Source of the DNA: Roseimicrobium sp. ORNL1
GTDB lineage: Bacteria > Verrucomicrobiota > Verrucomicrobiia > Verrucomicrobiales > Verrucomicrobiaceae
NCBI RefSeq assembly: GCF_011044495.1
Contig: NZ_CP049143.1
Location: forward strand, 6,882,001 to 6,946,000
Length of the DNA stretch: 64,000 nucleotides
Direction: 5' to 3'
Shown here: positions 17,422 through 22,950 of the stretch, in pieces
Layout: each line of letters begins with the position of its first letter
Numbering within the stretch: the stretch's first letter is position 1
The notes under the pieces: generated by a model
Told to the model about the DNA's origin: nothing
The model's database searches: none
The model's input: only the letters and a program-made list of their open reading frames with translations
Program-made: the position numbers and the translations under genes

Positions 17422-18018
17422 CTACCAGGCGCTCACCGCCGCGACGAGCGTGAGAATGCCATAGGCGACACCGCCAGCGGAGGCCATCCTCCAACGGCCG
17501 GCGTTTGCCGTGGCCCAACTGATGCCATCCCGCAGCAGGTAGGGCATGCCCACCAGGAACATGCCACCCAAGACCCACACATAGGCGAGAATGGGCATCA
17601 ATAGACGGCTGGAGGAAGGCTGGAGGAAGGCGGCGTGCAATACCGGCGAGGCAGCCAGCAGCAGCAGGGCCCCGAGGGCGCGCACGGCCAGAAACTCCGG
17701 CACATACACCACCACCAGCACAAAGGTGAGAGGCAGCAGCATCACCAGCCAGCGACGCCAGGTGAAGAACTCACCCATGTCCATGTACGAGACGAGGAAG
17801 TAGCTCCACACCGTGCCGATGGCGAGGAGGGCAATGCCCCAAGCGCGGTTGCGCGGGAAGTTCTTCGCCATGGCCATGGCCTGCTCCGCCTTCAGATAGG
17901 CCCAGAGATGACCCAGCACCAGAAGTACTCCCACGATGAGTCCGGCGGTCTTCAGCGACAACCCTTCGCCATCGGAGCGTTGATGGAAGATCCAGTCGTA
18001 GAACTCTTGGGGATTCAT
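17422..18018 (-). CDS. polytopic membrane protein of unknown function
   Basis: 198 residues from MNPQEFYDWIFHQ, with about six hydrophobic segments (for example AGLIVGVLLVLGHLWAYL, MLLPLTFVLVVVYV and GALLLLAASPVLHAAFL). The short cytoplasmic N-terminus FYDWIFHQRSDGEG reappears in a truncated copy at 19121-19201. It is the first gene of a probable minus-strand operon with the glycosyltransferase. The longer upstream frame (to 18177) has no membrane character. Confidence 0.7.
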   Translation of the reverse strand: MNPQEFYDWIFHQRSDGEGLSLKTAGLIVGVLLVLGHLWAYLKAEQAMAMAKNFPRNRAWGIALLAIGTVWSYFLVSYMDMGEFFTWRRWLVMLLPLTFVLVVVYVPEFLAVRALGALLLLAASPVLHAAFLQPSSSRLLMPILAYVWVLGGMFLVGMPYLLRDGISWATANAGRWRMASAGGVAYGILTLVAAVSAW

Positions 18019-18168
18019 GGAGGAGGTGCGTCGAGTCGTCTGCCATCCCGCCGGATGCGGCTCCTTGCAAGGGGAAAGAGCACCGCGAGAGAGGGGCGGG
18101 AAAAAATGTGTCTTGCCCCCGCGTGTCCTGCAATGGTAGCACTTCGTGCAATCCATTCGTCCTCTTGC

Positions 18169-19053
18169 ATGAAGCACTTCGTCAAATTTGTCATCATTGA
18201 GTCAGATGAAAGGGTTGGCAGTGAGGGCAAAAGCCTGGCGCCACCAGCCTACGCGGAATGCAAATCTCGCTGGCCCCAATGTTTCGCCCTAGGCACAAGA
18301 TCCATGAGCGTACACTTGGAGGAAGGCGATCCGGTGCTGGAGGAGATAGTGACGTTTCTGCGCCAACAGGGCCTGAAACCGCAAGCGAAACGCCATCCCA
18401 CTCCCAGTTTGGGCGACAAGACCCAGTTCTTCGTCCAAGGCTTGAGGACGTTTGATAAGGAGGACATCAGCGAGGCGGCATTCTACATGCTCATGCCGCA
18501 GAATGAACTGGGCGATGGTGGAAACCATAAATCCACTACCCAGATGTATCTGGAGCGGGGATCACTAAAAAAGCAGCCCGTCGGCAGTATCGGCACTACT
18601 CCAGCAATGGGATGCACAGATACCTTCCGAAAGGAGTTGGAGAAAGCAGGCTTCAAAGGACTCGGCTTCCGGGAAATAGTGAGCAAAGACGGAAAGCCAC
18701 TGCCCGAGCCCTACTGGCAACTGCTGCCAGACACCCATATGCCAGCACTCTTGAATCGAATCGTAGGCGAGGATGGCAACGACTATCAACCGGAACGGGT
18801 GCGCGAAACCGGGTGCTTCATAGACGATTTTTACTTTCCGGAACTGCTGCGTTTCCCTGCGAACGAGGTTCAAGCAATGGGAGGTTTTGACTTTGCCGCG
18901 ACATCCAAGCGCTTCGGCGGTGCGCCCGGGCGCTTTTACACTGGCACGGAGAATTTCCTTGTGAAGCCGCGCATCATTGTCTCCAAGGCATTCCGAGAAT
19001 GGAGCCTCGGTCGGAAGCTGAAGCTTGAATTCTATCCCGTGATTCTCGAATAA
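18169..19053 (+). CDS. unknown 294-residue soluble protein
   Basis: Translation from MKHFVKFVIIESDER gives a soluble, mixed alpha/beta-looking protein. Two similar stretches occur, TFRKELEKAGFKGLGFREIV (~150-170) and SKAFREWSLGRKLKLEFYPV near the C-terminus. The pattern 'x-F-R-x6-8-L-x-F-x-x-V' resembles the C-terminal motif of DUF1629/Imm11-like immunity proteins, but this resemblance is weak and unverified. It sits between a membrane-protein gene and a truncated copy of that gene's 5' end, as if inserted there or left behind by duplication. The longer frame upstream to 17635 is an antisense shadow. Confidence 0.65.
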   Translation: MKHFVKFVIIESDERVGSEGKSLAPPAYAECKSRWPQCFALGTRSMSVHLEEGDPVLEEIVTFLRQQGLKPQAKRHPTPSLGDKTQFFVQGLRTFDKEDISEAAFYMLMPQNELGDGGNHKSTTQMYLERGSLKKQPVGSIGTTPAMGCTDTFRKELEKAGFKGLGFREIVSKDGKPLPEPYWQLLPDTHMPALLNRIVGEDGNDYQPERVRETGCFIDDFYFPELLRFPANEVQAMGGFDFAATSKRFGGAPGRFYTGTENFLVKPRIIVSKAFREWSLGRKLKLEFYPVILE

Positions 19054-19405
19054 GGCGCGGGGCCAACCAGATATCTCCCAAAAAAAGCACGCCTGCGACA
19101 AGGCCAGTCGCCTTCACGGGTCATCCTTCGCCATCGAAGCGCCGGTGGAACATCCACCTGTAGAAGCTTCGAAAAAACACATAGGGGTCGGACGCGTGCA
19201 TTTCCGCCAGAAACGCCCTCTTGCCAAAGGAGAAGACACCCTTGAGAAACGCTCCAGAACCTGGGGGAGGGCGGTTTCTCAATTTTTCCTCAGAGAGATT
19301 CTGAATCCAGCAGTACCGGCTGCGCCGAATCAGGCACGTGTCCACCAAGGCACTTCCGCTTCGGGGGACCAGATCAAAACGCTAACACAACCTGGATAAA
19401 CCATC
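19054..19405. other. 352-bp intergenic region ahead of the bufferin-like operon
   Basis: Contains the truncated minus-strand fragment at 19121-19201 and then about 200 bp that should hold the promoter of the Cys-rich precursor gene. No convincing -35/-10 pair, riboswitch or operator was seen by eye. Confidence 0.5.
19121..19201 (-). pseudogene. truncated 5' fragment of a 17422-type membrane protein gene
   Basis: From ATG at 19201 the minus strand reads MHASDPYVFFRSFYRWMFHR then RFDGEG and a TGA stop. This matches the N-terminus of the membrane protein at 17422-18018 (FYDWIFHQRSDGEG), which continues for 170 more residues. Only the first 26 codons remain, so it is interpreted as a remnant of a paralogue. 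Confidence 0.5.
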
Positions 19406-19696
19406 ATGAAGTCTACGAAGCTGACCAAATCACTGCTCGCCGGTGCGGCGATGACCGGACTCCTGGCAGGTGGATTCACTGCCCAAGCTGCCTCCACCAC
19501 TGGAACTGGCATCTCCATCGCCAAGGCGGGTAGCGCGGACACGCTCGCTGCGCCGAAGGATCACGCCTGCAAGGGCCAGAATGAATGCAAGGGCCAGGGC
19601 GGCTGCAAGAGCGGTGACAAGGGATGCGCCGGCAAGAACACCTGCAAGGGCAAGGGCGGCTGCGCCATCAAGGACGGCAAGCCCGTTCACAAATAG
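19406..19696 (+). CDS. bufferin-like Cys-rich RiPP precursor (BufA-type)
   Basis: 96 residues. A cleavable signal peptide (KSLLAGAAMTGLLAGGFTAQAA, cleavage ~29) is followed by a short linker and six cysteines (55, 61, 67, 74, 80, 86) in two repeats, CKGQNECKGQGGC and CAGKNTCKGKGGC, giving spacing CX5CX5CX6CX5CX5C. Established: precursors of this type sit ahead of DUF692 (MNIO) enzymes, which oxidise cysteines to heterocycles, and the products bind copper in the periplasm (bufferins) or act in related roles (oxazolins). Here the DUF692 gene follows 107 bp downstream. Assignment to the BufA2-type class is from memory of the motif, not a search. Metal and modification are inferred. Confidence 0.88.
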   Translation: MKSTKLTKSLLAGAAMTGLLAGGFTAQAASTTGTGISIAKAGSADTLAAPKDHACKGQNECKGQGGCKSGDKGCAGKNTCKGKGGCAIKDGKPVHK

Positions 19697-19703
19697 GCCG
19701 TAC

Positions 19704-19760
19704 TTCAGCCTACGCTGAAATACCCGACCGCCGGAGCCTGGCACCCGACAGGCTCCGGCG
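19704..19760 (+). promoter_or_regulatory. hairpins between precursor and DUF692 gene (attenuator or mRNA-stabilising)
   Basis: A small stem TTCAGC/GCTGAA (19704-19719) is followed by a perfect 12-bp stem CGCCGGAGCCTG / CAGGCTCCGGCG (19729-19740, 19749-19760) with an 8-base loop. The sequence after it (cattcctctcc) is pyrimidine-rich but not a true T run, so it would terminate only partly or protect the upstream mRNA end. Either would yield more precursor than enzyme. Confidence 0.6.
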
Positions 19761-19803
19761 CATTCCTCTCCACCGTTCATTTTCACCCCCGCTCTCGCGC
19801 TTC

Positions 19804-20658
19804 ATGCCCGCCTCCCGCTTCAATGGAAACACCGAATACGGTGTGGGCATTGGCCTGCGCATCCCCCACTACCGCCATATTTTCGAGCAGAAGCCGGTGG
19901 TGGACTGGTTCGAGATTATTTCAGAGAACTACATGCTCGGCGGTGGCCGCCCCATGGCCGTTCTCGACCGCCTGCTGGAGCAATACCGCGTGGTGCAGCA
20001 CGGCGTCTCGATGTACTTCGGCAACCCCGAGCGGCCCAATCGCGATCATCTGAAGAAGCTCAAGACGCTCTGCAAGCGCACGAATACCCCCTGGCTCTCC
20101 GACCATCTCTGTTGGGGTAGTGTGAATGGGCGCTACTCCCACGACCTGCTGCCCATGCCCTACACCTGGGACGCCGTGAAGAAGACGGCCGCGAAAATCC
20201 GCGAGGTGCAGGACTACTGCGAGCGCCCCGTGGCCGTGGAAAACCTCAGCAGCTACGTGGAATTCCACATCAGCGAGATGACGGAGTGGGAATTTCTGAG
20301 CGAAGTGGTGGAGGCTGCGGACTGCGGCATCCTGCTGGATGTAAACAACATCTATGTCTCCAGCGTGAACCATGCCTTCGACCCGATGGACTACCTCAAC
20401 AACGTGCCGCACCATCGCGTGGCACAGATCCATATTGCAGGCCACACAAAGCACCCCACGCACATCCTGGACACACATGATCACCCCGTGATCCAGCCTG
20501 TGTGGAATATCTATGCGGAGGCCATCAAGCTCTGCGGCCCCACAGCCACGCTGCTGGAATGGGATGACAAGATTCCCAGCTTCGATGAAGTACATGCCGA
20601 AGCCCTGAAGGCCACTCAATTTCTCCCCAAGACGCATGCCAAAGTCCGCGCTGCCTAG
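19804..20658 (+). CDS. DUF692 multinuclear iron oxidative enzyme (MNIO, BufB/MbnB-like)
   Basis: 284 residues, normal for DUF692. TIM-barrel enzyme that uses a multi-iron centre and O2 to modify cysteines of the precursor peptide. Conserved blocks include VGIGLRIPHYRH, DWFEIISENYM, VQHGVSMYFG, LSDHLCWGS, PVAVENLSSYVEF, LLDVNNIYVSSVNH, QIHIAGH and DTHDHPV, which supply the His/Asp/Glu iron ligands. The start at MPASRF follows the hairpin; the frame further upstream overlaps the precursor gene. It overlaps the next gene by 23 bp, so the two are translationally coupled. Confidence 0.95.
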   Translation: MPASRFNGNTEYGVGIGLRIPHYRHIFEQKPVVDWFEIISENYMLGGGRPMAVLDRLLEQYRVVQHGVSMYFGNPERPNRDHLKKLKTLCKRTNTPWLSDHLCWGSVNGRYSHDLLPMPYTWDAVKKTAAKIREVQDYCERPVAVENLSSYVEFHISEMTEWEFLSEVVEAADCGILLDVNNIYVSSVNHAFDPMDYLNNVPHHRVAQIHIAGHTKHPTHILDTHDHPVIQPVWNIYAEAIKLCGPTATLLEWDDKIPSFDEVHAEALKATQFLPKTHAKVRAA

Positions 20659-21580
20659 CAAGGTGAAAACTGCACCTACTGCGAAGGCTCCCCGCAATGC
20701 GGCGGAGGCGCAACGCATGATGTTCGGCGCTGTCACACGAGCGCTGCATCAAAATGGCATGCAACAGACCTGGGTGGATGGCTCGGACATGGCGCGCTAT
20801 GCAGAGCTCTTCGTCAAACCAAACGACCGACTCACCTCCTTCGAGCGGTTGGAGATCTACAATCAACAGTACTGGTGGCGTGTGCTGGAGGGTTTCGCGG
20901 AGGACTTCAGCGGCGTGGCAGCCGTGATCGGCCCAAAGAAATTCGAGGCGCTCTCGGTGGCATACATTGAAACCTGTGGCTCCAACTCCTGGACCATGCG
21001 AAACCTGGGCCGGGACCTGCCCGCGTTCCTCGTGGCGCATCCACAGCTCACCGCACCGCATACCACTCTGGCGCTCGACATGGCCCGCTTGGAATGGGCA
21101 CGATGCCTGGCCTTCGATGAGCCTGCCGACCCTGTGCCAGATACGCAGAAACTGGCCCGCACTCCACCACACGAGTTGCGCCTCGGCCTGCAATCCTACA
21201 TCACCCTGCTCACCCTGGAATATGAGGCTGAGCAACTCCTGCTGCGTCTCCGCCGCCGCTCGCAGAAAGCGGCCGGCTCCACCGCCAGCAATGCCATGAC
21301 CTCCGCGCCCCGCCGCAGCCGCGCGTTGCGCATCGTGGCCAAGCGTGCGCCTGCACCCGTGCATCTTGTAGTGCACCGCTTGCAGAACACCGTGTACTAC
21401 AAGCGCGTAACGCCCGAGGCCCACGTGCTGCTCACCCTGATACACCAGGGCATACCTGTGGAGCAGGCCTGCGCCAGGGCTTTCACTGGGAGTGATTTCA
21501 CCCCGGAAGATGCCGCCTCACAGATCCAGCAGTGGTTTGCGGACTGGATGGAGCTGGGGTGGTTCACGGGACGTGCGTAA
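20636..21580 (+). CDS. DUF2063 (BufC/HvfC-like) partner protein
   Basis: 314 residues. The N-terminal half matches the DUF2063 pattern (RMMFGAVTRAL, RLEIYNQQYWWRVLEGFAED, IGPKKFEALSVAYI). The partner protein accompanies DUF692 enzymes and is thought to recruit the precursor. The C-terminal half (HLVVHRLQNTVYYKRVTPEA) has a winged-helix-like flavour, as in RiPP recognition elements. It overlaps the DUF692 gene by 23 bp and ends the operon, converging on miaB. Confidence 0.9.
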   Translation: MPKSALPSKVKTAPTAKAPRNAAEAQRMMFGAVTRALHQNGMQQTWVDGSDMARYAELFVKPNDRLTSFERLEIYNQQYWWRVLEGFAEDFSGVAAVIGPKKFEALSVAYIETCGSNSWTMRNLGRDLPAFLVAHPQLTAPHTTLALDMARLEWARCLAFDEPADPVPDTQKLARTPPHELRLGLQSYITLLTLEYEAEQLLLRLRRRSQKAAGSTASNAMTSAPRRSRALRIVAKRAPAPVHLVVHRLQNTVYYKRVTPEAHVLLTLIHQGIPVEQACARAFTGSDFTPEDAASQIQQWFADWMELGWFTGRA

Positions 21581-21582
21581 CG

Positions 21583-22950
21583 CTACACCGTCAGGGCCGG
21601 ATCACCGTACAAGGTGAATCCCTGAAACTCCGTGATGTGGACGTCAAAAATCTGACCGATGTGGCGGTCCGGGTTCCCCTCGAAGACCACGATCTTGTTC
21701 GTGCGCGTGCGGCCGGTGAGGCGGGCGGCATTGGTCTTGCTGGGGCCTTCGCAGAGGATTTCCACATTCGTGCCCACCAGCGGCACATACTTCGCCTGGG
21801 CGTGCTTGTTGATGAGGGCCAGGAGATCCTGATTCCTCTCCTCCTTCACACGCTCGGGGAGTTGCAGAGCGTCTTCCATCTCGGCAGCGGGAGTGCCGCG
21901 CCGCTTGCTGTAGCGGAAGATGAAAGCGTTCTCGAACTCGAGGCGGTCGCACAGGGCACGGGTCTCGGCGTAGTGCTCATCCGTCTCGCCGGGAAAGCCC
22001 ACGATGATGTCCGTGGTCACGGCGATGCCGGGGCGCGCGGCGCGGATCCTGGCCACCAGCTCTTCAAACTTCTCCGCGGAATACGGGCGGTGCATCTTCT
22101 TCAGGATGGCATTGCTGCCGCTCTGCATGGGAAGGTGCACGTGCTCGGCCAGCTTCGGCAGGTAGGTGAAGGCATTGATGAGGTCCGCCTTGTAACCGAT
22201 GGGATGCGGGCTGGTGAAGCGGATGCGCTCAATGCCATCCACCTCATGCACGGCCTCCAGGAGCTGCACGAAGGGGCTCTTGCCGTCCTTCATGGGGAAC
22301 TCGTGGCGACCGTAGAGATTCACGATCTGTCCCAGCAGCGTGACTTCCTTCACGCCACGCGCGGCGAGGCGGCGCACTTCCTCCACGATGTCCGCGATGG
22401 GCCTGCCACGCTCGCCACCGCGCGTGTACGGCACGATGCAGAAGGTGCATTTCATGTTGCAGCCCTGCATGATGCTCACGAAGGCGGAGGCCTGGTGCTC
22501 CTTCAGCTCGTGATCGCGGATGGCATTTTGCGAGGCCTGCTCCTCCTCGGTATCGACAATGGAGAAGCGCGCGTCATCCATCTGGCGTTCCTCGCGGCCG
22601 CGAATGATCTGCTCCACATACTCCACCACGCGGTGGTACTTCTGCGTGCCGACCACGAGGTCCACCTTGGAGGTGGTAATGAGCTCGGAGCCGCGGCTCT
22701 GGGCCATGCAGCCCATAAACCCGGTGACGAGCTGCGGACGCTCCTCACGGTACTTGTTCATCATGCCCATCTTCCCCAGCGCCTTCTGCTCCGCCTGATC
22801 ACGCACAGAGCAGGTGTTGATGAGGATCACATCCGCCTCGGCCTCCTGGGCCGTCATGGTATAGCCACGCTCCACGAACATCTGCGACACCTGCTCGGAG
22901 TCGCGCTCGTTCATCTGGCAGCCATAGGTACGGATGTGGACGCGGGGCAT
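21583..22950 (-). CDS. miaB: tRNA-2-methylthio-N6-isopentenyladenosine synthase
   Basis: 455 residues. Radical-SAM methylthiotransferase acting on A37 of tRNAs reading UNN codons. It has the N-terminal cluster domain (RTYGCQMNERDSEQ), the radical-SAM motif CNMKCTFC at ~165-172, and a C-terminal TRAM domain (TGRTRTNKIVVFEG). The start MPRVHIRTYGC matches the family. The frame extending to 23262 is not supported. It converges with the bufferin operon, with 2 bp between stop codons. Confidence 0.95.
   Translation of the reverse strand: MPRVHIRTYGCQMNERDSEQVSQMFVERGYTMTAQEAEADVILINTCSVRDQAEQKALGKMGMMNKYREERPQLVTGFMGCMAQSRGSELITTSKVDLVVGTQKYHRVVEYVEQIIRGREERQMDDARFSIVDTEEEQASQNAIRDHELKEHQASAFVSIMQGCNMKCTFCIVPYTRGGERGRPIADIVEEVRRLAARGVKEVTLLGQIVNLYGRHEFPMKDGKSPFVQLLEAVHEVDGIERIRFTSPHPIGYKADLINAFTYLPKLAEHVHLPMQSGSNAILKKMHRPYSAEKFEELVARIRAARPGIAVTTDIIVGFPGETDEHYAETRALCDRLEFENAFIFRYSKRRGTPAAEMEDALQLPERVKEERNQDLLALINKHAQAKYVPLVGTNVEILCEGPSKTNAARLTGRTRTNKIVVFEGNPDRHIGQIFDVHITEFQGFTLYGDPALTV

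Follow-up and report, generated by a model that had tools for sequence, protein, structure and literature searches.

Buf1, Buf2, EGKCG and other groups of MNIO precursors are found throughout the bacterial tree (PMC12452194). Those with six cysteines have been reported almost exclusively from Proteobacteria (PMC8692599), and the class as a whole, which includes a Cys-Lys group, has been named captophorins (PMC13097082). The partner proteins of PME-type 1 have a DUF2063-RRE layout (PMC12452194), and the specificity site of the enzymes is Asp where the precursor is of the Cys-Lys kind (BufB2-Asp251), Phe in Lys-Cys enzymes and not conserved in DUF2282 enzymes (PMC13097082). As far as we found, the published biochemistry of these copper peptides is that of Pseudomonadota, and what has been published on how C. 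vibrioides Buf2 is modified is described as preliminary. The text of PMC12452194 makes no mention of Verrucomicrobiota or CKG, and its figures or supplements may include such sequences; a literature search for papers naming both MNIO and Verrucomicrobi* found none. Here, we describe an operon from Roseimicrobium sp. ORNL1 (Verrucomicrobiota), located in a window of 64,000 nucleotides (contig NZ_CP049143.1, positions 6,882,001 to 6,946,000, numbered below from the first letter of the window). We are confident that it is best read as a bufferin-2-type (Cys-Lys captophorin) operon, and its rearranged Cys core is common to Verrucomicrobiota and Acidobacteriota and absent from the Pseudomonadota examples checked.

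Gene content of the operon

Three genes on the forward strand follow the order precursor, MNIO, partner, which is the bufABC order of bufferin operons. The first-pass annotation had read them as a bufferin-like MNIO/DUF2063 RiPP operon in a verrucomicrobial genome, and the profile matches for enzyme and partner agree. The arrangement is not due to chance, given that most of 80 loci from two phyla have the same gene order and a matching precursor. None of the three reading frames is disrupted, and the motifs and the set of six cysteines are complete.

The bufA-like precursor (19406-19696, 96 aa) has a Lys-rich start and a hydrophobic stretch ending in AQA, followed by a linker and the core CKGQNECKGQGGCKSGDKGCAGKNTCKGKGGC; its putative N-terminal Sec signal, MKSTKLTKSLLAGAAMTGLLAGGFTAQA, was read by eye from the sequence. 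The six cysteines are arranged as CX5CX5CX6CX5CX5C (spacing 5-5-6-5-5) in two three-Cys cassettes, CKGQNECKGQGGC and CAGKNTCKGKGGC. A signal-peptide precursor with six cysteines in a duplicated CKG cassette had been claimed at first; the six cysteines hold, but the duplication is only approximate, as the second cassette starts with CAG instead of CKG. Lys directly follows four of the six cysteines, and multiple Cys-Lys motifs combined with an enzyme that has Asp after its catalytic Asp (see below) are what defines a Cys-Lys captophorin. The profile search suggested for the precursor did match the BufA2 model (NCBIfam NF050166), but at 32.6 bits, below the curated cut-off of 60. The precursor has no DUF2282 match, the mark of Bufferin 1, and no DUF2282 protein in the genome exceeds the cut-off. 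A second BufA2-like match in the genome (E 0.024, L023) was discarded, since the translated locus contains no precursor-like ORF.

The bufB-like MNIO (DUF692; 19804-20658, 284 aa), the only MNIO gene of this genome, scores 350 bits with PF05114 (cut-off 25) and 341.8 bits with NCBIfam BufB NF050167, over the curated bufferin-maturase cut-off of 310. Its matches to the HvfB (246.9 bits, cut-off 360), ApyH, ChrH and MbnB (39 bits, cut-off 325) models all fall under their cut-offs. The frame is open back to 19624, and homology with relatives begins at the ATG at 19804. The motifs DVNN (residues 179-182) and DTH (223-225) are kept with few changes across 21 MNIOs (that of the window and 20 aligned relatives) and correspond, via alignment with 3bww, to N175, D242 and H244 of HvfB, whose replacement abolishes activity (PMC13419390). 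The motif LLEWDD (250-255) occurs in 114 of 136 MNIOs collected; within it D254, the presumed catalytic Asp, corresponds to FonB D249 and is directly followed by Asp255. This specificity site is Phe in the HvfB-like structure 3bww, Ala or Thr in the three Buf1-type plasmid MNIOs, and Asp or Gly in Pseudomonadota Buf2-type MNIOs. Covariation between the residue after Cys and the specificity residue was considered and is not clean (L120 and L062 combine Ala with CK cores).

The bufC-like partner (20636-21580, 314 aa) overlaps the MNIO gene by 23 bp (20636-20658), as had been described for the DUF692 and DUF2063 genes, and matches PF09836 at 44.5 bits (cut-off 27.2). The first-pass annotation had made its reading depend on matches to both profiles; the searches were run, and both families matched over their cut-offs. 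A sequence search of BufC against the PDB gave no match. For a structural model built from 47 aligned sequences (mean pLDDT 90.8), the only Foldseek matches at E < 0.001 are NGO1945 (3dee) and TglI (8hi7, 8hci), with VIA-align Z scores of 14.0 for NGO1945 and 12.5 and 12.2 for the TglI structures, and residues 181-313 of the model match RRE proteins, for example TbiB1 at Z 8.6. In its predicted fold, BufC has the DUF2063 plus RiPP-recognition-domain layout of PME-type 1 partners.

The gap of 107 nt that separates bufA from bufB contains a GC-rich hairpin of 12 bp (19729-19760, forward strand) without a T tract, around which it folds at a z score of -5.3; this hairpin is a possible attenuator or mRNA-stabilising stem. 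Stems of at least 9 bp occur in 66 of 93 loci, the window included, compared with 10% of dinucleotide shuffles, the 93 loci being related and hence not independent; several Opitutaceae-type loci have an intrinsic-terminator-like T run after the stem. An Rfam search of 18000-22000 gave no match up to E 0.1, and a sigma-70 promoter scan found none. The hairpin probably provides an excess of precursor, through partial termination or transcript protection, keeping the precursor transcript above those of the enzymes.

The cysteine core in relatives

The Cys pattern had been put forward as a verrucomicrobial novelty, a view that gives way to its being usual in the Verrucomicrobiota and Acidobacteriota loci examined. 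Using the MNIO as query, we fetched 80 named loci (by title 49 Acidobacteriota and 31 Verrucomicrobiota), and 59 of these have the exact 5-5-6-5-5 core, as do 16 of 18 loci of the window's own family. Hence, the core is a shared lineage variant and not peculiar to this genome. It departs from the Pseudomonadota spacing, 5-5-6-5-12, found in all nine BufA2 genes examined; these were taken from a collection of plasmids and do not sample the phylum at random. BufA2 model scores are 84-92 bits for three Pseudomonadota BufA2, against 19 to 46 for four Acidobacteriota/Verrucomicrobiota precursors. With the last Cys 5 residues after Cys5, instead of 12 as in Pseudomonadota, the core becomes two near-identical three-Cys cassettes. 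Across 70 variant cores, Lys is the next residue after Cys2 in 70, Cys5 in 68, Cys3 in 65, Cys4 in 60 and Cys1 in 57, but after Cys6 in only 7.

The precursors of relatives span 4 to 11 cysteines, with four-Cys cores (5-13-5) in Granulicella, Edaphobacter and Bryocella and 8 to 11 cysteines in others, among them L102 with nine CKGKDG-type units. Extreme cassette expansion, with seven to nine near-identical units of this type, is seen in L102, L118 and L119. Three further MNIO operons of the same gene order (L125, L126 and L127) have LLEWDG at the specificity site, and the upstream ORF of L127 encodes a peptide of repeats, each with a single Cys set in a DDCP context, possibly a different type of substrate. 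The MNIO of L111 (family f5, same class) is 49% identical to that of the window, groups with a Pseudoalteromonas plasmid MNIO (L163) and adjoins a 237-aa ORF with CAGGNSCANLGGC; the L111 stretch examined gave no BufC match.

The variant may already have been counted, undescribed, within Buf2. We entertain, tentatively and with less than even confidence, that the Acidobacteriota/Verrucomicrobiota peptides are a separate bufferin class, in which the disulphide is lost, five or six cysteines become thiooxazoles, the two copper sites are equivalent and cassettes drive the number of sites. Such a class may lack the first-to-last disulphide, established for Buf1 and presumed here for Buf2, because the terminal Cys has moved into the second cassette. 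If this is true, copper-site number evolves by cassette gain or loss.

Distribution and origin of the operon

PF05114 is found over cut-off in 26 of 289 verrucomicrobial genomes, and 19 of 68 genomes of the window's family have an MNIO. Among 50 relatives scanned, 29 have DoxX as their downstream neighbour, and the upstream neighbours in relatives share no common family. In the window, no DoxX gene adjoins the operon (DoxX-family genes are present elsewhere in the genome), neither a copper gene nor a copper-responsive regulator was identified beside it, and bufC is followed by an opposite-strand gene whose sequence we read as miaB. Two operon copies, on different contigs, are present in Chthoniobacter flavus Ellin428 (L046 and L095). 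Canonical BufA2 operons on Pseudomonas plasmids have metal genes as neighbours, a multicopper oxidase in L132 and a heavy-metal P-type ATPase in L157, which speaks for the bufferin-2 reading.

In the one congener compared (G344), the operon is absent from the same site and the flanking genes abut: window positions 17422-18079 (84% identity) there directly adjoin those from 21577 on (92% identity). The strain-specific segment in between (18080-21576) holds bufABC, an orphan gene (18304-19053, forward strand, 249 aa) and a degenerate copy of the first part of the membrane-protein gene beside the segment (copy at 19096-19165, reverse strand; gene at 17422-18018, reverse strand), which is a possible scar. 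The orphan gene is absent from 194 other verrucomicrobial genomes searched, and nothing marks it as part of the system. In a tree of BufB and BufC, the window groups with Chthoniobacterales (support 100/99), separate from the clade that nine members of its own family make up (100/100). Constraining the window to its own family was rejected (p-AU 0.035), which is modest for a grouping that was put to the test once the tree was known. BufC similarity agrees, at 264-286 bits for six Chthoniobacterales loci compared with at most 226 for the own family. Absence from the congener site together with the grouping with Chthoniobacterales suggests lateral acquisition, which on these sequence comparisons fits best; loss in the congener combined with old paralogy is less favoured.

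Proposed function and comparison with known systems

Very probably, the three genes produce a small peptide that is exported and binds excess copper through chemically converted cysteines. From their sequences we infer the following chemistry and copper role. After synthesis of the precursor in the cytoplasm, the RRE domain of BufC would bind its N-terminal part, and BufB, a diiron MNIO, would oxidise cysteines of the CK-motif core to 5-thiooxazoles, with four hydrogens lost per Cys. The modified peptide would then be exported by Sec and chelate copper in the envelope, buffering the cell against excess copper. Counted against the bufferin-2 reading are the BufA score under the BufA2 cut-off and a neighbourhood without DoxX or an identified copper gene or regulator.

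The sub-cut-off precursor and its rearranged core could also point to a distinct MNIO-modified class that serves another stress or metal (gold, mercury, oxidative, sulfur) and resembles bufferins only in shared enzymes; a response to gold is seen in related operons, and fusions with MerC occur (PMC12452194). We consider this unlikely, as the enzyme exceeds the bufferin-maturase cut-off and has the Cys-Lys specificity residue, and characterised MNIO-PME1 products are generally copper binders (PMC13097082). That the operon is decaying or silent after its acquisition, without a functional product, would fit the empty congener site, the missing DoxX and the adjoining gene fragment, but with three intact frames, complete motifs and all six cysteines this appears quite improbable. 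An HvfA/oxazolin-like (Lys-Cys, EGKCG) system, suggested by sub-threshold matches of the MNIO to HvfB and of the partner to HvfC, can be dismissed almost entirely, given that EGKCG repeats are absent, Lys follows Cys instead of preceding it, the specificity site reads EWDD instead of RDF and the HvfB score is under its cut-off.

Taken as a bufferin-2-type operon, the locus represents a coherent variant in two largely soil-dwelling phyla that widens the known range of these peptides and is missed by the curated precursor model, so that members of the class go uncounted when annotation relies on the BufA2 cut-off. Relatives with 4 to 11 cysteines form a natural series in which Cys number can be compared with copper capacity.

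Bufferin 2 (BufA2/Buf_6-12Cys, Pseudomonadota) shares with the operon the bufABC order, a putatively exported six-Cys precursor, an MNIO with a PME-type 1 partner, the 5-5-6-5 spacing of the first five cysteines, CKG motifs and Asp (or Gly) after the catalytic Asp. The operon differs in having its last Cys 5, not 12, residues after Cys5 and hence two three-Cys cassettes, in Lys usually following Cys1 and Cys3 too, in its sub-cut-off BufA2 score and in the lack of DoxX. Bufferin 1 (DUF2282, Caulobacter) likewise has an MNIO with a DUF2063 partner, an exported precursor and copper buffering, which for the present operon we infer from the genes; however, its four cysteines are spaced 10-6-20 or 10-8-20 (three DUF2282 precursors read), its specificity site is Ala or Thr, and DUF2282 does not exceed the cut-off in this genome. 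Oxazolin/HvfA, fontiphorin and bulbicupramide also combine an MNIO and a DUF2063-RRE partner with a Cys-rich repeat precursor and have thiooxazole copper ligands, as would the peptide here, but their repeats are Lys-Cys-Gly with Phe at the specificity site, as opposed to Cys-Lys-Gly. Methanobactin (MbnABC) shares the MNIO enzyme family, with these differences: the MbnB score is below its cut-off, a DUF2063 partner takes the place of MbnC, and methanobactins acquire copper and have precursors without a Sec signal peptide.
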